NCBI RefSeq assembly: GCF_000384255.1
Contig: NZ_KB913035.1
Location: 2,433,093 to 2,497,092 of the forward strand
Source: Methylotenera mobilis 13
Lineage (GTDB): Bacteria > Pseudomonadota > Gammaproteobacteria > Burkholderiales > Methylophilaceae
DNA length: 64,000 bases
Direction: 5' to 3'
Below, piece after piece: positions 26,122 to 54,856 of the stretch. Position numbers and translations under genes: made by a program. The first letter of the stretch is position 1; each line of letters begins with the position of its first letter. The notes below the pieces were generated by a model that worked only from the letters and a program-made list of their open reading frames with translations, had not been told where the DNA came from and ran no database searches.

Positions 26122-26351
26122 TATTGAAAAACATTTTCTCCAAAAATAAGTGCTAAAAATAATATTTAGATTGATTCTGAACCATATAAAAAGTCAGGTT
26201 TCAAATGTAAAGTTAAAGATTACGTTGTATAATTCCGCGATTAAAGCACGTGCACTATTGTTTAGAATTGAAACAGATGCTGGTATGACTGAGGCGCAAG
26301 AATAAACCTCTACTCATCAATACGATTTAGTTTTATTTAAGGATGAAAGTA
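26122..26351. other. ctaB-ccoN intergenic region
   Basis: This 230-bp AT-rich gap must hold the promoter of the cbb3 operon. A TATAAT occurs at 26228-26233 without a good -35. The palindrome GCACGTGC (26246-26253) lies just downstream. A lone FNR half-site (TTGAT at 26171-26175) has no partner. I find no full FNR box and no copy of the RegA-like palindrome here. Confidence 0.5.
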
Positions 26352-27785
26352 ATGAGCACTAATAATGTAGAAACGTTTTACGACGACTACGTCATACGCA
26401 GATTCAGCGTGATGGCAGTGGTCTGGGGAGTTGTCGGCATGTTAATGGGGGTGATTGTCGCCTCCCAACTAGCATTTCCTGAACTAAATTTAGGTTTACC
26501 ATGGACAAGTTTTGGACGTCTTCGTCCTTTACATACTAACTTGGTTATTTTTGCATTTGGTGGCTGTGCATTATTCGCAACGTCTTACTACGTTGTACAG
26601 CGTACCAGCCAAGTTAAACTAGCATTTCCAATGCTTGCTCGTTATACATTCTGGGGCTATCAAGCAGTTATTCTTGCTGCCATCATCTCTTTACCATTAG
26701 GTTATACACAAGCTAAAGAGTATGCAGAACTAGAATGGCCTATCGACTTATTACTGCTAGTCGTTTGGGTCATGTACGCAATTGTTTTCTTTGGCACGAT
26801 TGCTCAAAGAAAAATCAAACACATTTACGTTGCTAACTGGTTTTATGGCGCATTCATCATTGTTGTAGCAATTCTGCACATCGTGAACAGTGCTGCTATT
26901 CCTGCAGAATGGATGAAATCATACTCAGCTTATGCTGGTGTACAAGATGCAATGGTGCAATGGTGGTATGGTCATAACGCGGTTGGTTTCTTCTTAACCG
27001 CTGGTTTCTTGGGCATGATGTACTACTTTGTGCCTAAACAAGCTGAGCGCCCAGTGTACTCATATCGCTTGTCTATCGTGCACTTCTGGGGTTTGATCTT
27101 CACTTACATGTGGGCAGGTTCACACCACTTACATTACACAGCATTACCAGACTGGACACAGTCAGTAGGTATGGTGCTATCTTTAATCTTATTAGCACCA
27201 AGCTGGGGCGGTATGATTAACGGTATGATGACCATGTCAGGCGCATGGCACAAACTACGTGACGACCCTATCTTACGCTTCTTAATCGTTTCATTATCTT
27301 TCTACGGCATGAGTACGTTTGAAGGTCCAATGATGGCGATTAAAACAGTCAATGCACTATCACATTACACAGACTGGACAGTTGGTCACGTTCACTCAGG
27401 TGCATTAGGCTGGGTTGGCTTTGTTTCAATGGGCTCACTATATTTCTTAGTACCTCGCCTATGGGGTGTTAAACAAATGTATAGCAAGAAAGCAATTGAG
27501 TTGCATTTCTGGTTAGCAACTATCGGTGTAGTACTTTACATCACAGCAATGTGGATTTCAGGTGTTACTGCTGGTTTGATGTGGCGTGCAATGAATGATG
27601 ACGGCACATTAACTTACACATTTGTTGAATCTGTTAAAGCAATGCACCCATTCTACGTAATCCGTATGATTGGTGGGTTGATGTATGTGAGCGGCATGAT
27701 CATCATGTTGTGGAACGTCATCAAAACAGTGCAAATGGGGCAAGAAACTCGCGCCAGAATCCCTTCAACAGTTGTTCATGCTTAA
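26352..27785 (+). CDS. ccoN: cbb3-type cytochrome c oxidase subunit I CcoN
   Basis: Catalytic subunit of the high-affinity cbb3 oxidase, with haem b, haem b3 and CuB; 477 residues from ATG 26352 (AAGGA lies 8 nt upstream; a second in-frame ATG at 26343 is less well placed). CcoN hallmarks include [15 protein letters not shown] with the low-spin haem histidine, [27 protein letters not shown] with CuB histidines, and [13 protein letters not shown]. It heads the ccoNOQP operon, with the next gene 10 nt downstream. Confidence 0.97.
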
Positions 27786-27795
27786 GAGATCTAAC

Positions 27796-28422
27796 ATGTC
27801 AGATAAAGAACAAAAAGGCTTTACCCACGAAAAAATTGAAACCAACAGTTTTCTGATGGTCATTTTGATTTTGGTTGTGGTTTCATTTGGTGGTTTAGTT
27901 GAAATCGTGCCGCTATTCTTCCAAAAATCAACGACACAACCAGTGGAAGGCTTAAAACCTTACACTGCGTTGCAACTAGCTGGACGAGATGTATACATAC
28001 GTGAGGGTTGCTATAACTGTCACTCACAAATGATTCGTCCATTCAAAGCTGAAACGTTGAGATACGGTCACTACTCAGTGGCTGGTGAGTTTGTTTACGA
28101 CCGCCCATTCCAATGGGGTAGTAAACGTACTGGTCCAGATTTACATCGTGTTGGTGGTCGCTACAGTGATGAATGGCATCGCATTCACTTAATTAACCCA
28201 CGTGACTTGGTACCAGAGTCTGTCATGCCAGCTTACCCATGGCTAGAAAAAAACCTTGTAGACGCGAACAATTTGCCAGCACATATGCGTGCTTTAAAAA
28301 TTGCTGGTGTTCCATATGCTGATGAAGAAATTAAAAGTGCAGCTAATGACGTTTACGGAAAAACAGAAATGGAAGCTGTAATTGCCTACTTACAAGTGCT
28401 GGGTACAGCGCTTAAACAATAA
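27796..28422 (+). CDS. ccoO: cbb3-type oxidase subunit II CcoO
   Basis: Membrane-anchored monohaem cytochrome c of the cbb3 complex. Taken from ATG 27796 (208 residues); the upstream in-frame codons overlap the end of ccoN. One N-terminal helix (about 19-41), then the haem motif CYNCH at 72-76 ([12 protein letters not shown] is a CcoO signature). The distal methionine is likely in VMPAYPWL. It passes electrons from CcoP to CcoN. Confidence 0.96.
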
Positions 28423-28432
28423 GCAGTTAATC

Positions 28433-28576
28433 ATGGATATTATTGATTTACGCAGCATAGCAACAGTCGCAGCCCTAGTTACCTTTGTAGGCATCTGGGT
28501 CTGGGCTTGGTCTGGGCGGCATAAAAAAGACTTTGACGAAGCGGCAAGATTGCCGCTTGAGGGAGATGAAGAATGA
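28433..28576 (+). CDS. ccoQ: cbb3-type oxidase subunit CcoQ
   Basis: Single-helix protein of 47 residues (helix at about 8-26), with GRHKKDFDEAARLPL on the cytoplasmic side, a pattern seen across CcoQ proteins. In other species it protects or stabilises the complex. Taken from ATG 28433. Its stop overlaps the ccoP start in ATGA (28573-28576), so ccoP translation is coupled. Confidence 0.92.
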   Translation: MDIIDLRSIATVAALVTFVGIWVWAWSGRHKKDFDEAARLPLEGDEE

Positions 28577-29475
28577 GTGATTTTACAAGCGATTTCTGGC
28601 CGTATTTTATTTCGGCAATCGTGATTGGCGGTATCGTATTCTGTTTAACGATATTATTGATGACAAGCAAGTCACATGATCCAGCTCACACTGGTGAATC
28701 AACAGGCCACGTGTATGACGAGGACATCCTCGAAATGAACAACCCAATGCCAAGATGGTGGTTTTGGATGTTCATCATTACTTGTGTATTTGGTGCTATT
28801 TACCTATTCCTTTTCCCAGGTTTAGGAACATACAGTGGCAAACTAGGCTGGACTGCCTTAAAACAGTATGAGCAGGAAGTCAAAGAAACCAACGACCGTA
28901 TCGCACCTATTTATGCGAAGTTCACTTCAATGTCTGGTGAAGAAGTTGCACAAGACCCGAAAGCGATGGCTATTGGCGAACGTTTGTTTATGAACAACTG
29001 TTCACAATGTCACGGTTCAGACGCACATGGCAGCAGAGGCTTCCCTAACCTAACAGATACTGATTGGCTATATGGTGGTGCTCATGCAACCATTAAGGAA
29101 ACAATCACTAACGGTAGAAACGGTATGATGCCTCCGATGGCTGCAGCAGTTGGCGGTCCTGAAGACGTTAAAAATGTAGCTCACTATGTACTTAGCCTAT
29201 CAAACAGCGAGCATGAAGCAAGTCGTGCAGCTTTAGGTAAAGAAAAATTTGTCGCATGTGCAGCTTGTCATGGTCCAGACGGCAAAGGTAACCAAGCGAT
29301 TGGTGCACCAAACTTAACTGACGATACATGGTTACATGGTGCTGGTGAAGCGGCAATTATTCACCGTATCAATAACGGCTTAAACAACAAAATGCCAGCA
29401 CAAGGTTCACGCTTAACACCTGAGCAAATTCATGTATTAGCCGCTTATGTATGGCGCTTCTCTAATGCTAAATAA
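28573..29475 (+). CDS. ccoP: cbb3-type oxidase subunit III CcoP (dihaem cytochrome c)
   Basis: Dihaem cytochrome of 300 residues with two N-terminal helices (about 11-31 and 62-82). Two periplasmic cytochrome c domains carry CSQCH (143-147) and CAACH (229-233). It is the electron entry point of the cbb3 complex. The NNPMPRWWFWMF segment before the second helix is typical of the family. It is the last gene before a strong terminator. Confidence 0.96.
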   Translation: MSDFTSDFWPYFISAIVIGGIVFCLTILLMTSKSHDPAHTGESTGHVYDEDILEMNNPMPRWWFWMFIITCVFGAIYLFLFPGLGTYSGKLGWTALKQYEQEVKETNDRIAPIYAKFTSMSGEEVAQDPKAMAIGERLFMNNCSQCHGSDAHGSRGFPNLTDTDWLYGGAHATIKETITNGRNGMMPPMAAAVGGPEDVKNVAHYVLSLSNSEHEASRAALGKEKFVACAACHGPDGKGNQAIGAPNLTDDTWLHGAGEAAIIHRINNGLNNKMPAQGSRLTPEQIHVLAAYVWRFSNAK

Positions 29476-29478
29476 GCC

Positions 29479-29507
29479 TTTAGCGCTAAACATCTAACTT
29501 AGCGCTA
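29479..29507. repeat. Palindrome TTTAGCGCTAAA plus partial copy
   Basis: A perfect 12-bp palindrome (29479-29490) is followed by a second TTAGCGCTA (29499-29507). Both lie between the ccoP stop and the terminator. They may add to the 3' RNA structure; no other role is apparent. Confidence 0.4.
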
Positions 29508-29525
29508 TTGAATAAAAAGCATCTT

Positions 29526-29573
29526 AACGCCCACTATTTAGCTTATGCTAAAATAGTGGGCGTTTTTTATTTT
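29526..29573 (+). terminator. Rho-independent terminator after ccoNOQP
   Basis: AACGCCCACTATTTAGC, loop TTAT, GCTAAAATAGTGGGCGTT (one bulged base), then a run of T residues (TTTTATTTT). The long stem indicates strong termination between ccoP and ccoG. Confidence 0.9.
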
Positions 29574-29604
29574 AGTCACAATTTTTTAATTAAGTCTGAA
29601 TAAA

Positions 29605-31041
29605 GTGTCCACCCAGAAAAGTAAATCCAAAAAAACGATTCCTATCGTGAATGATCCTGCGCAGCCAGTTACTAGATCACTTTACGAACCTCATCAAAAA
29701 ATCTATCCGCGCAACACTTCTGGCCTTTATAAAAACTGGCGCTGGATCATGATTTGGATTACACAAATTGTGTTCTACGGCGTGCCTTGGTTACAATGGG
29801 GTGAACGACAAGCCGTATTGTTAGATATTGGTACGCACCGTTTTTATATTTTCGGCTTAGTACTCTACCCGCAAGATCTCATTTATTTAGTGGTGATTTT
29901 AATCATCGCGGCGTTAGCACTTTTCTTATTTACTGCCGTAGCGGGCCGACTGTGGTGCGGGTTTGCCTGCCCCCAATCGGTCTACACAAAAATATTTTTA
30001 TGGATAGAAAGACAAGTTGAGGGAGACCGCGCAGCACGCCTGCGTTTGGATGCAAGCAAACTTAACCGTAACAAACTACTCAAGAAAACGCTGAAACATT
30101 CTCTTTGGATTAGCTTTTCGGTTTGGACAGGCTTTACTTTTTTAGGTTATTTTACGCCGATACGTGAGCTAATTCAGGGGATTTTGCAGTTTCATTTAAG
30201 CCCTTGGGAAACATTTTGGATTTCTTTCTATGGTTTTGCAACTTACGGTAACGCAGGCTTCCTGCGTGAGCAAATCTGCAAACACATGTGTCCTTATGCA
30301 CGTTTTCAAAGTGCGATGTTTGACAATGACACGCTCATTGTGACTTACGATGAAGAGCGTGGTGAACCACGCAGTGGGCGCTCTCGTAAAGTTGATGCCA
30401 AACAAAGTGGCTTAGGCGACTGTATTGATTGCAACTTCTGTGTACAAGTATGCCCAACTGGCATTGATATCCGCAATGGCTTGCAATATGAGTGTATTAG
30501 CTGTGGCTTATGTGTGGATGCATGCAATAGCATTATGGACAAAATGGAATATCCTCGTGGTTTAATCCGTTTTTCTACACAAAATGCGCTGACTAATCAC
30601 TGGACTCAAGAACAAGTCGTCAAGAAAATCTTACGTCCTCGTGTGCTTATTTACACAGGCTTACTCCTACTCATGAGTGCGGGCCTTGTATACTCACTAG
30701 TCACTCGCGTTCCATTTAAAGTAGATATCATTCGTGACCGCGGTGTTATGTCACGTTTAGTAGCGGGTGGGAAAGTTGAAAATGTCTATCAAATGCAGAT
30801 TACCAATGCTTCAGAACAATTGGAAACTTTCAAAATCTCCGTCTCTGGTATCGAAGGTTTATCGCTGGCCTCTAACAAGGAATTCACAGTCAATGCAGCC
30901 GAATCAAGAATGGTTGCGGTAAGCTTGCAAATTACAGATGGTTCTATCAAAAGTGGCTCACATCCAGTGATATTCGAGATTGTTGCAAACAAATCAAACG
31001 AACGTCTATTTGAGAAGTCTATTTTTTACATGTCTCGCTAA
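29605..31041 (+). CDS. ccoG: cbb3 oxidase accessory protein CcoG (RdxA/FixG), polyferredoxin
   Basis: Membrane polyferredoxin of 478 residues, reported in Rhodobacter to reduce copper for cbb3 assembly. Membrane helices occupy about 45-210. WCGFACPQSVYTK and two ferredoxin clusters (CIDCNFCVQVCP and CISCGLCVDACN) sit in the middle, and a C-terminal Ig-like domain follows the last helix. The start is GTG 29605. It has its own transcription start, since a terminator precedes it. Confidence 0.94.
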   Translation: MSTQKSKSKKTIPIVNDPAQPVTRSLYEPHQKIYPRNTSGLYKNWRWIMIWITQIVFYGVPWLQWGERQAVLLDIGTHRFYIFGLVLYPQDLIYLVVILIIAALALFLFTAVAGRLWCGFACPQSVYTKIFLWIERQVEGDRAARLRLDASKLNRNKLLKKTLKHSLWISFSVWTGFTFLGYFTPIRELIQGILQFHLSPWETFWISFYGFATYGNAGFLREQICKHMCPYARFQSAMFDNDTLIVTYDEERGEPRSGRSRKVDAKQSGLGDCIDCNFCVQVCPTGIDIRNGLQYECISCGLCVDACNSIMDKMEYPRGLIRFSTQNALTNHWTQEQVVKKILRPRVLIYTGLLLLMSAGLVYSLVTRVPFKVDIIRDRGVMSRLVAGGKVENVYQMQITNASEQLETFKISVSGIEGLSLASNKEFTVNAAESRMVAVSLQITDGSIKSGSHPVIFEIVANKSNERLFEKSIFYMSR

Positions 31042-31322: not shown

Positions 31323-31985
31323 ATGCAAACAGCGCTTATTTACAGCTCATTACTTATGGGCATTGCAGGTGGACCACACTGTGTTGCGATGTGTGGCGCT
31401 GCATGTACTGCACTGACACAATCACCTCAAACACCCTATGCAATTTACCATTACCATATTGGTCGACTCTGTGGCTATGCCTTGCTGGGCGCGATTGCTA
31501 CCTTTGCCATCCAAAGTATCGCCTGGCTGTCTAGCTACAGTAGCGTGCTTCACCCACTATGGACTTTTTTCCATGTGCTAATCTTTTTTTGGGGTGTTCT
31601 ATTGATTATTTATGCGCGCCAGCCAATTTGGGTGGATCGTGCGGGGCGCAATATCTGGGGGCATGTGAGGAAGCTCAGCACGAAACAAGGCGGTCATTTT
31701 TACATCGGCATGCTGTGGGCGTTGATGCCTTGTGGCTTGCTTTATTCTGCCTTGGTGATTGCCTCATTTAACGGCAACCCTCTAGATGGTGCATTAAGTA
31801 TGTCTGCGTTTGCCTTAGGCTCTAGCGTGTCTTTATTCTTAGCACCTTGGCTTTGGTTGAAACTCAAAACAAAAACCATTGAACCTTATGGCATGCGCTT
31901 AGCAGGTGTGCTACTTAGCGCAGCAAGCGCTTGGGCGATATGGATGGAGCTTACCCACAACACCAAAGTCTGGTGTGCAACCTAA
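31323..31985 (+). CDS. UreH_2-type membrane protein (sulfite exporter TauE/SafE-like)
   Basis: Protein of 220 residues with about six membrane helices. GPHCVAMCG at residues 17-25 and MPCGLLYSAL in the second half are the paired motifs of the UreH_2 family, related to the DsbD/CcdA transmembrane domain. The gene is very often found after ccoGH or near ccoIS in proteobacteria; it may handle copper or reducing equivalents, but its function here is not shown. It starts 2 nt after the FixH stop codon. Confidence 0.82.
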   Translation: MQTALIYSSLLMGIAGGPHCVAMCGAACTALTQSPQTPYAIYHYHIGRLCGYALLGAIATFAIQSIAWLSSYSSVLHPLWTFFHVLIFFWGVLLIIYARQPIWVDRAGRNIWGHVRKLSTKQGGHFYIGMLWALMPCGLLYSALVIASFNGNPLDGALSMSAFALGSSVSLFLAPWLWLKLKTKTIEPYGMRLAGVLLSAASAWAIWMELTHNTKVWCAT

Positions 31986-31987
31986 CA

Positions 31988-32027
31988 CCATCTATTGCAT
32001 CGTATGCAACCAGCGATATTTAGATGG
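31988..32027. repeat. Nested inverted repeats between convergent genes
   Basis: Inner stem TTGCAT-CGT-ATGCAA (31995-32009) nested in outer arms CCATCTA (31988-31994) and TAGATGG (32021-32027). It lies between the convergent UreH_2 and beta-propeller genes and overlaps the propeller stop codon. There is no T-run, so it is at best a weak terminator or an RNA-stabilising hairpin. Confidence 0.5.
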
Positions 32028-33219
32028 CTGAAGCCTTCAAACCCTCGGTTGCAGTATTCCACATCAAAAATATCTGTTTATCCTTTTTTAGCAATATTGG
32101 ATAGTCAGCATTACCTGTGGTGTCTGCAATCATAGAGGGCGTTCCCCAACTTTTCCCTTCATCATCAGATTTCATTAACCATATCTGACTTTTACCTGCA
32201 TCTTTTTCGCGCCAAACTAACCAGACAGTGTCGCCAATTGTAGCTAGAGCTGGGTGTCCTGCCTGCTTTTTCATATTGCCAAACTTCTTAGATGGTGAAG
32301 ATACCCAATCGACACCATCCATCCGAGCATAAAACAAGTTAGCTTTTTGTCCAGATTCGTCATTACCCCCATCAAACCAAGCCATGTGGTATCCCCACCA
32401 GCGTTCCGCCTCTCCACCACTGGCAAGCGCCGCCCCATGATGTGGACAGCCTTCTACCTTCCAGCGACCAAATGTTGCACGCTTGGGCTGTGGTGATGTT
32501 TGATTGGCAGGAATCTCTGCCATCATATGGTCGCGCTCACTCCCTTTAAACACGTGCCGCCACATTGCGGCAACGGTGCCATCTGGTTTATTAGTAAGTG
32601 CAATTCGGCAACATTCGCAACTGCTATCTGCCAGTTTCAGTTCTACTGAAAAACTTACGCCTTTATTCTCAGAAACAGCATAATAAATTGCCGCGCCCTC
32701 ATAAGGCTGATTGGTAGCTTTAGCGGCTAATAAATCGCGCTTATCCACCCAAGTCACCGTGATTTTCCCATCAGCACTCACATTTAATGAGTCAAAACGA
32801 TGCGTAATTTCACTGCGGTCCTGATGCACGATATAAGGTTTCTCAAACGTTTTACCTGCATCTGTGGAGCGTGCAAACCATATGTAGCCAGAAAATGGTT
32901 TCTTAAGCGCCTCTGTCCATGTCAGGTAAATATAACCTTCTGATGAAATAGCAATTTTAGGGCGAGCTTCTCCATCTGCACCAATTTTTTGTGGTATTTG
33001 ATTAACGATGACAGGCGTCGAAAAGGTTTTTCCTGTGTCATTACTTTTACTGACTTTTAATAGTCCATCATGCACGGAGGCACGCCACAAGCTCCCCTGC
33101 GGGTCAAAAGCAACACTCACTGCGATTGCCACGTTTTGATGCTGAGTATGCTCCTCGTGGGCATTTGAAACAAATGCCCAACAAAGTAAACTTAAGGCCA
33201 ATAAATATTTAATCATCAA
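32020..33219 (-). CDS. Exported Asp-box (BNR/sialidase-like) beta-propeller, Cys/His-rich
   Basis: Protein of 399 residues. Signal peptide 1-20 (cleavage SNA, then HEEHTQH). Asp boxes SNDTGKTF (59-66), STDAGKTF (118-125), a weaker SENKGVSF (183-190) and SDDEGKSW near the C-terminus indicate a six-bladed propeller of the BNR/sialidase superfamily. The RIP motif of true sialidases is absent, so glycosidase activity is doubtful. Unusual are CECC at 201-204, GCPHHG at 257-262 and a mature N-terminus beginning with four histidines in seven residues. It overlaps the TonB receptor stop by ATGA. A metal- or ligand-binding partner of the receptor is inferred. Confidence 0.75.
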   Translation of the reverse strand: MMIKYLLALSLLCWAFVSNAHEEHTQHQNVAIAVSVAFDPQGSLWRASVHDGLLKVSKSNDTGKTFSTPVIVNQIPQKIGADGEARPKIAISSEGYIYLTWTEALKKPFSGYIWFARSTDAGKTFEKPYIVHQDRSEITHRFDSLNVSADGKITVTWVDKRDLLAAKATNQPYEGAAIYYAVSENKGVSFSVELKLADSSCECCRIALTNKPDGTVAAMWRHVFKGSERDHMMAEIPANQTSPQPKRATFGRWKVEGCPHHGAALASGGEAERWWGYHMAWFDGGNDESGQKANLFYARMDGVDWVSSPSKKFGNMKKQAGHPALATIGDTVWLVWREKDAGKSQIWLMKSDDEGKSWGTPSMIADTTGNADYPILLKKDKQIFLMWNTATEGLKASAI

Positions 33220-35534
33220 TAGTCAAATTTCATTTGCACATAAGCCGTGCGTTGTGGATAAGGGTGAAATACATAAGATTTATAATTATTCAGATTATCG
33301 ACACCTAGGCTAGCAGTATAACCTTTAGCAAACTTGTAATTAGTTTTAAAGTCTACGACAAAAAACTTACTCGCGGCACCAAACGTACTGTCATTCACAT
33401 CACTATTATCAAGTGCATTATATTGGCGACCACTATAACGTGCTGCTAGACTATACGTGAGATTGTTACCACTGTGGTAAGTAGCTACTGCCTTCAACAT
33501 ATTACGTGGAATGCGCGGTGGTTTATTACCAATCGTATTAGGTGCAGCTAGATTACTCAACACCTCAGCCTCTGTAAAGGTAGCACTGCCCTGAAAATCT
33601 AAACCATGGATTAATACATCCTGCCACTGTGTAGCTAACTCTAACCCACGTGTACGAATATGGTCTACATTCTGCACAAAACTACAGCCGCCTGATCTAG
33701 TACATACCCCTGTGTCGTAAGGGATAGCCCCGTTAATCGCAATATTTTGTGAGACGAGTGCATCGTGCTTATTCTCACTAAACAAGCTAGCTCTAATCAA
33801 GCCATTATCGTAGCGCCGTTCTACTGTAAATTCGCTTGCAATGACCTCCTCTGGCTTTAGATTAGGATTGGATTCAACAAAATAAGCAGTAGCACCATTT
33901 TGCAATGGCTGAAACATTTCACTTACGGTAGGGAAGCGAAATGCCTGTCCTAAAGCAGCACGGAACCCCCAAGCAGGTACTGGCTCGAAACTGATGGAGA
34001 TTTTGGGTGAAAATTTGGTTTCAGCCCTATCTTTATAATTTGCAGTTTGTAGCACATTAGCAATCGTCGTTATATTCTGACCATCAGACGCTTGCCAGCG
34101 CTCTGCACGGCCACCTAGAGTGAGCACCCACTTTGGATTAATCTGCCATTTATCTTGCGCATAAATTGCATGCGTCATAGACTCGCCCTTTGCTGAGGTG
34201 TTTAATACTCCTTCATTGCCATCTTTCCAATCCGCAGTATTGTGCGTATCACTCTTTAGCGTGTATCTGTCTACATGGTAACCTAAATCAACAATATGCT
34301 CATTTGGTCGTAAAGTAGCGCGCGCATCAAACACCGTCCAACCTGTTCCTGATAAATCAGTGATACGGCCAGTTCTTGTGATGTAAGGGTTACCTTGAAT
34401 TACTGTTCCTGAAGAAAGGGCGTTAGCAGCACTATTTTTGTCTTTCTGATAGTCATAATCAGATAGTGTTAATTGCCAATCAACAATGCCTTTGGTATTA
34501 GACTTAACATCCAGTGCTTGCATGATATGAAGTGACTCAGCTTCAGCAGGATTCATTCCCGATATATCATAACGTTGACCATTAAAACTGACCCTGCCGT
34601 TATATACAGGACTTCCCGCAGCATCTTTAATGTAGCTCTCAACATCCGTTGTGCCTTTCATATCCCAAATCGCCAACGTATAGGCTAGTTTCAACGCTGA
34701 ATTGAGGTCATAGGTTGTTTTAAACTTGATATTAGTCTGCTCGGTATGATCAATACTGTTTGCACCAAAAATTACTCGGTCCGTATTTGTCTCACTTTTA
34801 TCCTGATATGCGCCAGTCACTACAGGACTTGCTCCAGGCACTGTTGATGAAAGATTAGCCGTTGAAAAATTCATCGGTTGCCCTTCATTCTCCAAATAAT
34901 CGGCACCTAACCAAAATGAAAAGTCATTCACCTTGTTACCAAAAGAGGCTGTCAAATGATTACCTTGATAATGTTCATCCGTGCCATATAGTTTAAAACC
35001 TTGCACAAAAGACTGTGCACTTGCGTGCGCCTCAAACTTCTCTGGCATGCGAGTGGCAATGCTCATCACACCACCAAACGAATTGCCTGCATAAAGCGCA
35101 GAGAACGGACCGTACATCATACTAATACTTTCAATCTCCTCAGGACTCACCATGCCCCAACGTGGCGGGAATGCGAACGAGTTACCGAGTAAGTTAGAGA
35201 GTAATACACCATCTGCGTAAAGCAGGCTTTGTGCACTGGATAAAGTACCAATCGTACGCGTAGCAATAATGCCGTTTCTGTCACCGATAAAGCGCTCTCG
35301 TACTTGAATGCTAGGCAGGTATTTCAAGGTTTGTGCAGGGGTTGCTGCATTAACATTCTCTTCAATTTGTTTTTTATCGAAAGTTTCTACAGTAGCAGGA
35401 TGCTTACTGATTCGACTATCAATCATGGGCGCACGTATTTCAACAGCTTCTAATTCGATAGTTTCATTATGCGCTGCGAGCGATGTCATACTGAAACTTG
35501 CGGCAACAACTGAAAAAATAAGCTTTATGCGCAT
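33216..35534 (-). CDS. TonB-dependent outer-membrane receptor
   Basis: Taken from ATG 35534 (772 residues), which gives a clean signal peptide (RIKLIFSVVAASFSMTSLAA); the reading frame extends 73 codons further up but only into intergenic DNA. A TonB box (ETIELEAVEI) follows cleavage, then the plug (about 35-150, with GGVMSIATR) and a 22-strand-type barrel ending in a C-terminal aromatic (KFDY). The substrate cannot be read from sequence; vitamin B12, siderophore, copper and carbohydrate receptors share this architecture. It is translationally coupled to the propeller gene and divergent from regB, sharing an intergenic region with two candidate RegA sites. Confidence 0.88.
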   Translation of the reverse strand: MRIKLIFSVVAASFSMTSLAAHNETIELEAVEIRAPMIDSRISKHPATVETFDKKQIEENVNAATPAQTLKYLPSIQVRERFIGDRNGIIATRTIGTLSSAQSLLYADGVLLSNLLGNSFAFPPRWGMVSPEEIESISMMYGPFSALYAGNSFGGVMSIATRMPEKFEAHASAQSFVQGFKLYGTDEHYQGNHLTASFGNKVNDFSFWLGADYLENEGQPMNFSTANLSSTVPGASPVVTGAYQDKSETNTDRVIFGANSIDHTEQTNIKFKTTYDLNSALKLAYTLAIWDMKGTTDVESYIKDAAGSPVYNGRVSFNGQRYDISGMNPAEAESLHIMQALDVKSNTKGIVDWQLTLSDYDYQKDKNSAANALSSGTVIQGNPYITRTGRITDLSGTGWTVFDARATLRPNEHIVDLGYHVDRYTLKSDTHNTADWKDGNEGVLNTSAKGESMTHAIYAQDKWQINPKWVLTLGGRAERWQASDGQNITTIANVLQTANYKDRAETKFSPKISISFEPVPAWGFRAALGQAFRFPTVSEMFQPLQNGATAYFVESNPNLKPEEVIASEFTVERRYDNGLIRASLFSENKHDALVSQNIAINGAIPYDTGVCTRSGGCSFVQNVDHIRTRGLELATQWQDVLIHGLDFQGSATFTEAEVLSNLAAPNTIGNKPPRIPRNMLKAVATYHSGNNLTYSLAARYSGRQYNALDNSDVNDSTFGAASKFFVVDFKTNYKFAKGYTASLGVDNLNNYKSYVFHPYPQRTAYVQMKFDY

Positions 35535-35740: not shown

Positions 35741-37021
35741 ATGAATACGCCATTTCCCAATTTAGAGAACCCTACTCGCCGTAACCTACAGCGTTTATTT
35801 TTACTGCGTAGTGTCATGGTTGCTTTCATGCTGGCAGCAACACTGACTTTGTTTTACTTAAACATCCCGCTCCCCAAATTGCCAATCGCTTTTGCAGTCG
35901 GCGGCATGTTGCTACTAAACGTCATGACATTGTTGCGTCTAAAGAAATTTAGCAATGTCACAGACCAAGAGTTACTATTACAGCTCTTGGGTGATTTAGT
36001 TGCGCTTACTGTGTTATTTTATTTCACTGGTGGTTACAGCAACCCTTTGGTATGGATGTACCTACTACCGTTAACTGTTGCTGCTGTTGCATTAAAACGT
36101 GAATACGCTTGGCTACTGGCAATCATAGCCGTCAGCTGTTATTCGACACTCGTGTTTTATTACGTACCACTCTCTCATCTCCACATGCACTACTTGGCAG
36201 GGAAGTCCCTAGATATTCATTTGGTAGGCATGTGGCTAGGCTTTGTGGTGAGCGCAGGTATTATTGCCTTTTTTGTCACACGCATTGGCCAGAGCTTGCG
36301 TGATTATGATCAGATGATGGCTTCCATTCGCGAAAAGTCACTAGAAAGTGAGCGTGCACTATCACTAGGCACCCTAGCAACTAGCGCAGCACACGAACTG
36401 GGGACGCCCTTGGCTACCATGGCAGTCATCAGTAAAGAGCTCGCACAAGACCTATCAAATCAACCAGAACAATTGCAACAGCTAGAAATCATCCGCACTC
36501 AAATTGGACGTTGTAAGGAAATATTGTCCTCAATTACCCATCATGCGGGGCAAAGCCGTGCTGATGCTGGACATGGATTGACGCTAAGCCAATTTTTACA
36601 AGAAGCAATCCAGCGCTGGCGTGATACTCGTCCAGCAACTGAATTAGTAATTGATTTAAACAATGGAAGCAGCGACCCATTAATCTTTACTGACAAAACG
36701 CTGACCCAAGCAATACAGAACTTGTTAGACAATGCAGCAGACGCTTCACCAGAGCGCGTGTTATTCAACGCGATCTGGAATAACGATACCTTAAAAATTC
36801 AGATTAGGGACTTTGGTAATGGTCTCAGTGACGAAGTTAAAAAGCAGCTTGGAACGCCATTTTTCAGCTCAAAAAATGGAAATGGCATGGGGCTAGGTGT
36901 TTACCTCACAGAAATTATTCTCGCAAAATTTGGCGGCACGCTCACACTAAGTAATCATAGCGAAGGTGGTGTACTTACTGTTGTGAAATTACCGCTACAC
37001 AAATTACGAATCGCTCACTGA
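35741..37021 (+). CDS. regB: Redox-sensing histidine kinase RegB/PrrB/RoxS
   Basis: Taken from ATG 35741 (426 residues), preceded by AAGG. Six membrane helices (about 20-180); the loop GGYSNP at 97-102 matches the GGxxNP quinone-sensing motif of RegB. The H-box AAHELGTPLAT (phosphoaccepting His218) is nearly invariant in this family, and Cys258 in GRCKEIL corresponds to the redox-active cysteine of the dimerisation domain. HATPase motifs (N-box LLDNAADAS, G-boxes DFGNGL and GMGLGVY) follow. It forms an operon with regA 9 nt downstream. Confidence 0.93.
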   Translation: MNTPFPNLENPTRRNLQRLFLLRSVMVAFMLAATLTLFYLNIPLPKLPIAFAVGGMLLLNVMTLLRLKKFSNVTDQELLLQLLGDLVALTVLFYFTGGYSNPLVWMYLLPLTVAAVALKREYAWLLAIIAVSCYSTLVFYYVPLSHLHMHYLAGKSLDIHLVGMWLGFVVSAGIIAFFVTRIGQSLRDYDQMMASIREKSLESERALSLGTLATSAAHELGTPLATMAVISKELAQDLSNQPEQLQQLEIIRTQIGRCKEILSSITHHAGQSRADAGHGLTLSQFLQEAIQRWRDTRPATELVIDLNNGSSDPLIFTDKTLTQAIQNLLDNAADASPERVLFNAIWNNDTLKIQIRDFGNGLSDEVKKQLGTPFFSSKNGNGMGLGVYLTEIILAKFGGTLTLSNHSEGGVLTVVKLPLHKLRIAH

Positions 37022-37030
37022 GGATAAACA

Positions 37031-37609
37031 ATGAGTGACCTCAATACAGACACAAGAAATAGTGATGAACACCCTACGCTACTGCTGGTTGATGATGATG
37101 ATGCTTTTTTAAATGCTCTTGCAATGGCCATGCGTAAACGCGGCTTTCTCGTTACGCTTGCCAATAGTGCTGAAACAGCATTTGAACTTGCACAGGCCGA
37201 CCCACCAGAGTTTGCAGTAGTTGATCTAAAAATGTCGGGAAACTCAGGTTTGGTATTAGTTAGACAGCTTGCAAGCTTACAGGCCGCTACCAAAATAGTA
37301 ATACTAACGGGCTATGCCAGCATCGCTACCGCAATTGAAGCCATCAAGCTAGGCGCAACTCATTATTTAGCAAAGCCTGTGGATGCAGATGAAATTGTCG
37401 CCGCATTTTCAAAACAATCTGGCAATGAAGAAATTGAGCTATCACACAACCCATTATCAGTGGATCGTTTAGAGTGGGAGCATATTCAACGTGTGTTAGT
37501 AGAGAATGACGGCAACATCTCGGCCACAGCGCGTAGCCTTAATATGCACAGACGCACGCTACAGAGGAAATTAGGTAAGAAACCTAGCATCAACCCAACG
37601 ATTATCTAA
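37031..37609 (+). CDS. regA: Redox response regulator RegA/PrrA/ActR/RoxR
   Basis: Protein of 192 residues. Receiver domain with acidic pocket DDDD at 21-24, phosphoacceptor Asp65 (VVDLKM) and Lys115 (LAKPVD); C-terminal Fis-type helix-turn-helix at about 162-183 (NISATARSLNMHRRTLQRKL), the highly conserved RegA signature. A short linker joins them. RegA-type regulators control terminal oxidases, carbon fixation and other redox genes. It sits 4 kb from the cbb3 genes with its cognate kinase directly upstream. Confidence 0.94.
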   Translation: MSDLNTDTRNSDEHPTLLLVDDDDAFLNALAMAMRKRGFLVTLANSAETAFELAQADPPEFAVVDLKMSGNSGLVLVRQLASLQAATKIVILTGYASIATAIEAIKLGATHYLAKPVDADEIVAAFSKQSGNEEIELSHNPLSVDRLEWEHIQRVLVENDGNISATARSLNMHRRTLQRKLGKKPSINPTII

Positions 37610-54311: not shown

Positions 54312-54349
54312 CCCCTTAATGACTCAATTAACTGCTATTGGGACCAATT

Positions 54350-54856
54350 ATGATAGAACGACATAGACTTCATCTTTTACCTTTTAGTCTTGCGCTCTTA
54401 CTGATGATAGTGAGCAGCATTACTCAGGCCCAAGATATTGTGTCGATCCAAAACCCTTGGGTTCGCGCCACAAATCCTGGGCAAAATATTAGTGCTGGAT
54501 ATATGACCATGACAAGCACTCAGGATGTCACACTAATAAGAGTCAAAAGCGATGTCACTGAAAGTGTAGAGATGCACAGCATGAAAATGGAAAACAATGT
54601 CATGAAGATGCGTATGTTAGATTCTCTTGCATTAAGCTTAGGGAAGCCATATAAGCTAGAGCCCGGCGGCTACCACCTCATGCTGTTTGATCTGAAAAAA
54701 TCTCTTTCAGATTCACAAACAGTAGATTTTGAAATGACATTTAAAAATAACAAAGGTGCCGAATTTACGCAAAAAGTAAAAGCGATTGTTAAAGGTTCAG
54801 AAAACAATCATCAGCAATTGCAACAGAGTGATCATGAGCATCATCATAACCATTAG
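54350..54856 (+). CDS. PCuAC copper chaperone (DUF461) with His-rich tail
   Basis: Periplasmic Cu(I) chaperone, which in other bacteria loads CuA of cytochrome oxidase. Taken from ATG 54350 (168 residues), with a signal peptide (about 1-27). The binding motif is exact: His76-X10-Met87-X21-His109-X-Met111. The C-terminus adds a metal-binding tail (DHEHHHNH). It lies far from the cox genes but serves the same two oxidases in principle. A longer in-frame TTG start exists and is not favoured. Confidence 0.92.
   Translation: MIERHRLHLLPFSLALLLMIVSSITQAQDIVSIQNPWVRATNPGQNISAGYMTMTSTQDVTLIRVKSDVTESVEMHSMKMENNVMKMRMLDSLALSLGKPYKLEPGGYHLMLFDLKKSLSDSQTVDFEMTFKNNKGAEFTQKVKAIVKGSENNHQQLQQSDHEHHHNH

Follow-up and report, generated by a model that had tools for sequence, protein, structure and literature searches.

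A TonB-dependent receptor and an Asp-box propeller with conserved cysteine and histidine motifs as probable parts of a copper-acquisition system in Methylotenera mobilis 13

The window analysed here is a 64,000-nucleotide stretch of the 2.8 Mb contig NZ_KB913035.1 of Methylotenera mobilis 13. Two intact genes adjoin each other on its minus strand, one encoding a TonB-dependent receptor (P0002) and the other a propeller protein (P0001) of a family usually labelled 'sialidase'. Coupling of the two genes, conservation of cysteine and histidine motifs, a model of the fold and, in part of the relatives, a context of copper genes were observed. These observations suggest that receptor and propeller probably belong to a system that acquires copper for respiratory copper enzymes, and that the propeller is probably an overlooked component of bacterial copper supply for respiration. 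The two genes and the codons of the propeller motifs are:

32020..33216, minus strand: propeller (P0001), predicted seven-bladed Asp-box (BNR) protein of 398 amino acids with a Sec-type signal peptide
33216..35534, minus strand: TonB-dependent receptor (P0002), 771 amino acids
33139..33159, minus strand: codons for HEEHTQH, residues 20-26, His-rich mature N-terminus, low model confidence
32608..32619, minus strand: codons for CECC, residues 200-203, in the loop before the inner strand of blade 4
32434..32451, minus strand: codons for GCPHHG, residues 256-261, in the loop before the inner strand of blade 5

At the gene junction (TAT TGA TG) the stop codon of the receptor (TGA, 33218-33216) and the start codon of the propeller (ATG, 33216-33214) have one base in common (TGATG). 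The first-pass annotation of this DNA had described an ATGA overlap and joint translation of the pair; the overlap has to be corrected to a single base, and translational coupling stays plausible. The propeller is 398 residues long when counted from this ATG; with an in-frame TTG at 33219 as its start it would have 399. Because the earlier residue numbers were counted from the TTG, they (201-204 for CECC and 257-262 for GCPHHG) were one too high, the two motifs themselves and the His-rich HEEHTQH being present as described.

Besides Cys12 in the signal peptide, P0001 has four cysteines, 200, 202, 203 and 257, all of them in CECC and GCPHHG. Exactly four cysteines follow residue 60 in 76 of the 80 relatives of a named set, which was chosen with a pattern including GCP[HV][HN]G, so that this motif is present by selection; CxCC, which lay outside the pattern, occurs in all 80. 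Four Asp boxes (repeated Sx[DN]xGx[TS][FW]) were found at residues 58, 117, 182 and 350, the number noted before, of which three are canonical and the one at 182 has Asn in place of Asp. The sialidase motif (F/Y)RIP was not found in P0001, as had been noted, and the sialidase families of Pfam and NCBIfam gave no match to it. With BNR_2 of Pfam it scored 31.3 bits, just under the cut-off of 31.4 that is exceeded in L067 and P0003. A sequence search of the PDB with P0001 returned nothing at E up to 1, and a search with alignment A2 gave weak hits (best E 8e-6) that covered part of the length and were for the most part sialidases.

The AlphaFold2 model of the propeller (59 sequences) has a mean predicted local distance difference test score (pLDDT) of 90.2 and a predicted template modelling score of 0.88; the sole stretch with pLDDT below 50 is residues 21-27, within the His tail. 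Strand order in the model gives seven blades, as compared with six in the catalytic propeller of GH33 sialidases. When the loops before the inner strands were aligned, SCECCRIAL (blade 4), GCPHHGAAL (blade 5) and EITHRFDSL (blade 3) appeared in register, and in our alignment C200 is equivalent to C257, C202 to H259 and H139, and C203 to H260. Structure prediction had been proposed as a way to see whether the motif residues cluster. In the model CxCC and GCPHHG share a loop position in adjacent blades, as read from strand order. Loops in this position border the central channel in such propellers. Arg160, Arg220, Arg228 and Arg246 are invariant in alignment A3 and may form an arginine cluster. 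The structural neighbours obtained with Foldseek and VIA-align were PLL lectins (Z about 30), Bacteroides glycoside hydrolases and sialidases; a fold family missing from the VIA list was not counted as excluded.

In 81 proteins of the family, His and Met make up 16% of the 16-residue N-terminal tail, defined after a crude cut of the signal peptide, and 5% of the remainder; the enrichment is more than twofold in 64 proteins and not in the other 17. The signal peptide of P0001 is plain, with no lipobox of the kind that marks lipoproteins such as XusB and BtuG, and a lipobox-like string near the N-terminus was seen in 4 of the 80 named relatives. The propeller is therefore expected in the periplasm. 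The first-pass annotation had seen the two proteins as a capture-and-uptake pair; of this, uptake is supported and extracellular capture is not.

P0002 matches the Pfam plug and barrel families above cut-off, and 12 receptor plug matches were counted on the contig. It resembles haem (PhuR), PqqU and siderophore receptors with scores far below the family cut-offs: 122.2 bits for the TonB haem receptor family TIGR01785 (cut-off 316.85) and 73.9 bits for the PqqU family NF041535 (cut-off 1200). P0002 had 19 family matches at E up to 1, none of them to the OprC/NosA copper receptor family TIGR01778, and the CrtA structure 9rvq was not found at E up to 10, so that close similarity to CrtA is not seen. 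A mixed receptor profile scored highest with YncD/PqqU (357 bits), followed by FecA (225) and others, CrtA (9rvq, 165) and OprC (139). Copper receptors have no clear sequence signature, as stated in the part of PMC6769254 consulted.

Profile A2 found matches at E up to 0.001 in 56 of the 370 class-level genomes and 24 of the 397 phylum-level genomes. A 50-locus set was formed from every profile match, other than the window itself, that reached E about 1e-38 or better, weaker ones being left out, and 3.5 to 17 kb was read around each propeller, some stretches ending near it at a contig end (e.g. L242, L258 and L285, the last cut before CPHH). Neighbours were counted from tblastn matches to a reference set, some 55 proteins taken from these loci. 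Ten weak BNR matches served as control loci, in five of which no propeller was recognised with the reference set. CxCC was present in 50/50 relatives, a count somewhat favoured because the profile was built from rows all carrying CxCC, CPxx[GAS] in 48 and CPHH in 32. In 40/50 loci a receptor lay within 4 kb, and in 37/50 it was the gene directly upstream, on the same strand; the propeller was directly followed by a thioredoxin-like gene in 37/50. Neither a receptor nor such a gene occurred at any control locus (0/10 each). Other neighbours were a regulator pair (11/50) and TonB/ExbB/ExbD (6/50). Among the 32 receptor-propeller gaps measured, with starts picked by script, 25 were 30 nucleotides or shorter, 14 being overlaps and six of these four-base overlaps; one gap was 501 nucleotides.

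It had also been proposed to tabulate the motifs of homologues against the presence of a receptor and of cbb3 or copper genes. All 32 CPHH relatives have a receptor in the fetched stretch, as have 10 of the 18 others (Fisher 8e-5, kinship among loci ignored). Adjacency to cbb3 genes holds in Methylophilaceae loci and was seen there alone. The named set gave a similar picture: after 24 loci of Methylophilaceae type had been set aside, the remaining 56, two of which are also in the 50-locus set, had a receptor within 4 kb in 46 cases and directly upstream in 39, thioredoxin directly downstream in 47, a regulator pair in 22, a TonB system in 22 and PCuAC in four. Single-link grouping at 150 bits divided the receptors paired with propellers (P0002 and those of 104 relatives, 89 of them distinct proteins) into seven groups, and in a sample of 20 they were 15-39% identical to P0002. 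Since the propeller is paired with seven receptor groups, it appears to be the constant part and the receptor the one exchanged. The exchangeable receptor and the thioredoxin-like partner of most relatives had both been missed in the first pass.

The genes around the pair in the window, and the single PCuAC gene of the genome, are:

26343..31041, plus strand: cbb3 oxidase genes, presumably ccoN, ccoO, ccoP and ccoG
31323..31985, plus strand: DsbD_2 transmembrane protein, convergent with the propeller
35741..37609, plus strand: sensor kinase and response regulator, divergent from the receptor, which we take to be of the RegBA type (regBA); the kinase domains alone were scanned
54338..54856, plus strand: PCuAC copper chaperone with a His-rich C-terminus (DHEHHHNH), the sole match in the genome, apart from the oxidase and receptor genes

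These positions agree with the earlier description of the pair as lying between the cbb3/ccoG cluster, with the DsbD_2 gene added, and the kinase/regulator genes.

Copper genes were found near propellers in several lineages. PCuAC was near 9/50 propellers in four genera (five of the loci from one genus) and CopC near 4/50. In the operon of L280 the order is DUF2946, receptor, propeller, thioredoxin, PCuAC, DUF1775 (YcnI-like) and CopC-CopD. Candidate leader genes were picked by eye immediately before 11 receptors out of 34 measured in the 50-locus set, again with several from a single genus. A scan of ten leaders drawn from all sets put eight over the DUF2946 cut-off and one under it, and the tenth had no match. 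In Bordetella pertussis a DUF2946 protein with CxxC and a C-terminal RAPP senses copper and controls a receptor (PMC9426467, in part). A gene of the copper-storage protein Csp1 lies upstream of the receptor in L045 (L045:5051-5488, plus strand, with a Tat-type signal; TIGR04401 162 bits against a cut-off of 100, PDB 5fjd at E 1e-21) and in L046 (by tblastn). L076:12275-12808 (minus strand) is Csp1-like by its similar N-terminus alone and has no Pfam match, and the window locus has no gene of this family. Most of the plasmid relatives listed (64 records) are annotated 'sialidase family protein'. Five of them, hand-picked and not a random sample, 22.6-26.6% identical, keep CxCC and GCP, and in each at least one gene annotated as CopC, as a multicopper oxidase or as copper-binding lies no more than about 8 kb away. 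In the text seen of PMC7785015, a figure legend on the copper-limitation gene clusters of Nitrososphaera viennensis names a 'sialidase' and DsbD, and in soil ammonia-oxidising archaea 'sialidases' adjoin a ccd biogenesis gene and increase in biofilms (PMC12448741, in part). These archaeal 'sialidases' may belong to the propeller family. Copper, put forward before as a first guess for the ligand of an uptake pair, is thus backed beyond the window by the upstream receptor and by PCuAC, YcnI-like, CopC-CopD, Csp1 and DUF2946/CruR genes.

Among closer relatives, matches to the propeller were found in 57 of 101 related genomes and 46 of 52 within the genus, some by short or paralogous proteins alone. 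CxCC is present in 32 and GCPHHG in 31 of the 36 long relatives (over 360 residues, over 30% identity). A close-relative set of 37 loci (L039-L075), mostly of the same genus and sharing 19 loci with the named set, had a receptor within 4 kb of the propeller in 21 loci, a copper or oxidase gene of the reference set in 30, a DsbD_2 homologue in 32 and the regulator pair in 18.

An outer-membrane barrel with a Cys-rich leader, e.g. L049:6851-7816 (minus strand, ACSSCGC..), L068:6873-7923 (plus) and L073:4324-5322 (plus), was found at 9 of the 16 close-relative loci without a receptor as against 1 of the 21 with one. The L068 barrel follows a DUF2946-like leader (tblastn), and the barrel may therefore be a second copper channel. 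Proteins of about 220 residues with a signal peptide match the C-terminal half of the propeller alone (residues about 190-390) and lack CxCC (L076:5974-6654, minus; L079:6890-7549, minus; L082, L078 and others); several stand at the site of the full propeller in relatives, often beside ExbD-ExbB-TonB. A second propeller of about 450 residues, of CTCC/CPVNG type, adjoins TonB-ExbB-ExbD in L076:8574-9926 (minus), L063:18-1364 (plus) and L079:9467-10807 (minus), and also adjoins a receptor in L076 and L079. A RegBA-like pair near the propeller was also seen in Rhodanobacter, Luteibacter, Frateuria, Dyella and a Chromatiales metagenome-assembled genome (L180, L182, L185-L187, L191, L193-L195, L197, L205, L207, L219 and others).

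From gene context, motifs and fold we infer copper as the ligand, a periplasmic location of the propeller, a redox step and a hand-over of the metal. The receptor would carry a copper complex over the outer membrane with TonB energy, and the propeller, exported by its plain signal peptide, would be its periplasmic partner. The His tail (His/Met elsewhere) together with CxCC/CPHH at the mouth of the central channel would bind the incoming copper or copper-chelate, and a thiol-reducing partner would keep the propeller cysteines reduced or help Cu(II) become Cu(I). This partner would be the thioredoxin-like protein in most relatives and perhaps the neighbouring DsbD_2 protein here, which is a possible source of reducing power. 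Copper would then be handed to PCuAC, to a CcoI-type ATPase for oxidase assembly and to the oxidases, the cbb3 oxidases being probable clients. The kinase/regulator pair at 35741-37609 is a possible regulator of the copper unit, as a RegBA-like pair recurs near the propeller in 22 of the 56 named loci.

Several observations weigh against this proposal. In the window itself no thioredoxin-like gene was seen beside the propeller, the PCuAC gene is 21 kb from the pair, and no DUF2946 match was found in the genome. The receptors are mixed and nearer to PqqU/YncD than to CrtA. A receptor is directly upstream in just 19 of the 37 close-relative loci, and it is on the other strand in two of the 32 CPHH loci (L256 and L278). 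The four long relatives without CxCC (L069, L072, L074 and L075) have no receptor label in any of their stretches, and relatives with CPVNG for CPHH stand in mixed contexts, several without recognisable copper genes. Homologues lacking the Cys/His residues and the receptor thus exist, in 4 of 36 close relatives and in the CPVNG class, and they limit the rule offered in the first pass. The bias of the profile towards CxCC (see above) has to be added here. No copper or oxidase label was found within 4 kb in 37/50 loci (13/50 with any) or in 50/56 named loci (6/56 with any); the reference set recognises its own families only, and a missing label is therefore weak. CxCC alone was tried as a copper marker and dropped, the CPVNG loci L254, L257, L259, L260 and L264 lying, by eye, among mostly unrelated-looking genes.

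Other explanations were considered. The propeller might be a redox enzyme or an assembly factor whose only tie to the receptor is the common operon, e.g. a chaperone for copper sites or disulfides during oxidase maturation. This would fit the thioredoxin-like, TlpA-like or DsbD_2 genes nearby, the propellers kept where the receptor is missing and the archaeal 'sialidase' and DsbD named together in the cluster figure (PMC7785015, in part). However, the CPHH class always occurs with a receptor in the fetched stretch (32/32), which points to an uptake-linked role of the propeller, and we regard this explanation as rather unlikely. It is also unlikely, and a little more so, that the propeller caps the receptor outside the cell and captures a metal chelate with its Cys/His residues, like XusB on XusA or BtuG on BtuB. 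Such an arrangement of a TonB receptor and a seven-bladed propeller is proven for siderophores in Bacteroides (PMC13142918, in part), and gaps of at most 30 nucleotides in 25 of 32 cases show tight coupling; but XusB and BtuG are surface lipoproteins whereas P0001 has no lipobox and just 4/80 named relatives have a lipobox-like string, the thioredoxin-like partner and conserved cysteines suit the periplasm better, and some propellers have no adjoining receptor. Import of another ligand (haem, pyrroloquinoline quinone (PQQ) or a lanthanide chelate), with the copper genes as incidental neighbours, appears improbable to a similar or slightly greater degree. In its favour are the resemblance of the receptor to haem receptors (TIGR01785), PhuR and PqqU/YncD, the methylotrophic nature of the organism group and the propeller gene yncE adjoining pqqU in E. 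coli. Yet every one of these family scores stays far under its cut-off, genes for PCuAC, YcnI-like, CopC-CopD and DUF2946 proteins recur in operons of relatives outside Methylophilaceae, and it is not obvious what CxCC with a thioredoxin would do for PQQ or lanthanides. The reading as a true exo-sialidase, or as a glycan lectin that feeds a sugar receptor, which the Asp boxes, the annotation of most listed plasmid relatives and the best fold matches would suggest, was rejected as scarcely credible on the missing RIP motif, the seven blades of the model and the family scans.

The copper-acquisition proposal can be given a bolder form, which we put forward tentatively as a possibility with the odds somewhat against it: the propeller may be a new class of periplasmic copper protein, with a Cys4/His site (CxCC, CPHH and H139) contributed by neighbouring blades at the channel mouth, that together with its own thioredoxin strips and reduces copper from the chelates brought in by interchangeable TonB receptors, i.e. 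a 'copper-chelate reductase/acceptor' in the place of the PepSY_TM protein of CrtA operons. If so, many proteobacterial 'sialidases', and perhaps those of ammonia-oxidising archaea, would be copper-acquisition proteins. Copper supply for oxidases in Gram-negative bacteria is poorly known, and copper acquisition pathways are described as still poorly characterised (PMC12914433, in part). A concrete protein, a four-cysteine site and a three-gene unit are now defined, and there is a possible way to recognise copper receptors. The propeller is tied to several receptor groups, and in part to copper chaperones and copper-sensing leaders, hidden so far under the sialidase label.

GH33 sialidases and PLL/PHL lectins share the propeller fold, the PLL lectins with Z about 30, but are about 11-14% identical and have sugar sites where P0001 has Cys/His motifs, with RIP absent from P0001. 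Among solved receptors E. coli PqqU (YncD) comes closest to the mixed receptor profile, and its gene also adjoins that of a seven-bladed propeller, YncE, which aligns with P0001 at Z 23.6; unlike here, the E. coli genes are divergent and PqqU is a PQQ transporter. To our knowledge YncE is not an Asp-box protein. In Bacteroides the TonB receptor BtuB works with BtuG, a seven-bladed propeller and surface lipoprotein, in the uptake of vitamin B12, and we know of no CxCC or CPHH in XusB or BtuG. XusA/XusB is likewise a TonB receptor with a seven-bladed propeller, but XusB is a surface lipoprotein for ferric siderophores of another propeller family, DUF4374 (PMC13142918, in part).

The gene content of L280 has a counterpart in the pcuABCDE operon of Bradyrhizobium, which reportedly contains TonB receptor, PCuAC, YcnI-like and CopC-CopD-like genes; we know of no propeller or thioredoxin gene in it. 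In the open-licence literature no paper was recognised that links a copper TonB receptor to an Asp-box propeller, which is no proof that none exists; the text seen of PMC12914433 and PMC9426467 contains neither 'sialidase' nor 'propeller', and that of PMC13038864 does not contain 'sialidase'. The closest system is CruR-CrtA-CrpH of B. pertussis, in which a TonB receptor serves haem-copper oxidases (PMC9426467, PMC12914433 and PMC13038864, each in part). A DUF2946 leader lies upstream there and in part of the propeller family, and TonB/ExbBD and PCuAC genes are sometimes present in both. In contrast to CrtA genes, after which a PepSY_TM gene comes next in more than 75% of loci according to the same excerpts, the receptors studied here are mostly followed by a propeller and then a thioredoxin-like gene, and in the window the gene after the receptor is the propeller. 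The authors of PMC13038864, in the part seen, speculate that the PepSY_TM protein encoded after the B. pertussis copper receptor might be a copper reductase, a role that propeller and thioredoxin may fill here. By this comparison the proposed system is a variant within a known kind, TonB-dependent copper import for haem-copper oxidases of the CruR-CrtA type, with a propeller and thioredoxin partner of which no description was found in the open-licence literature searched.

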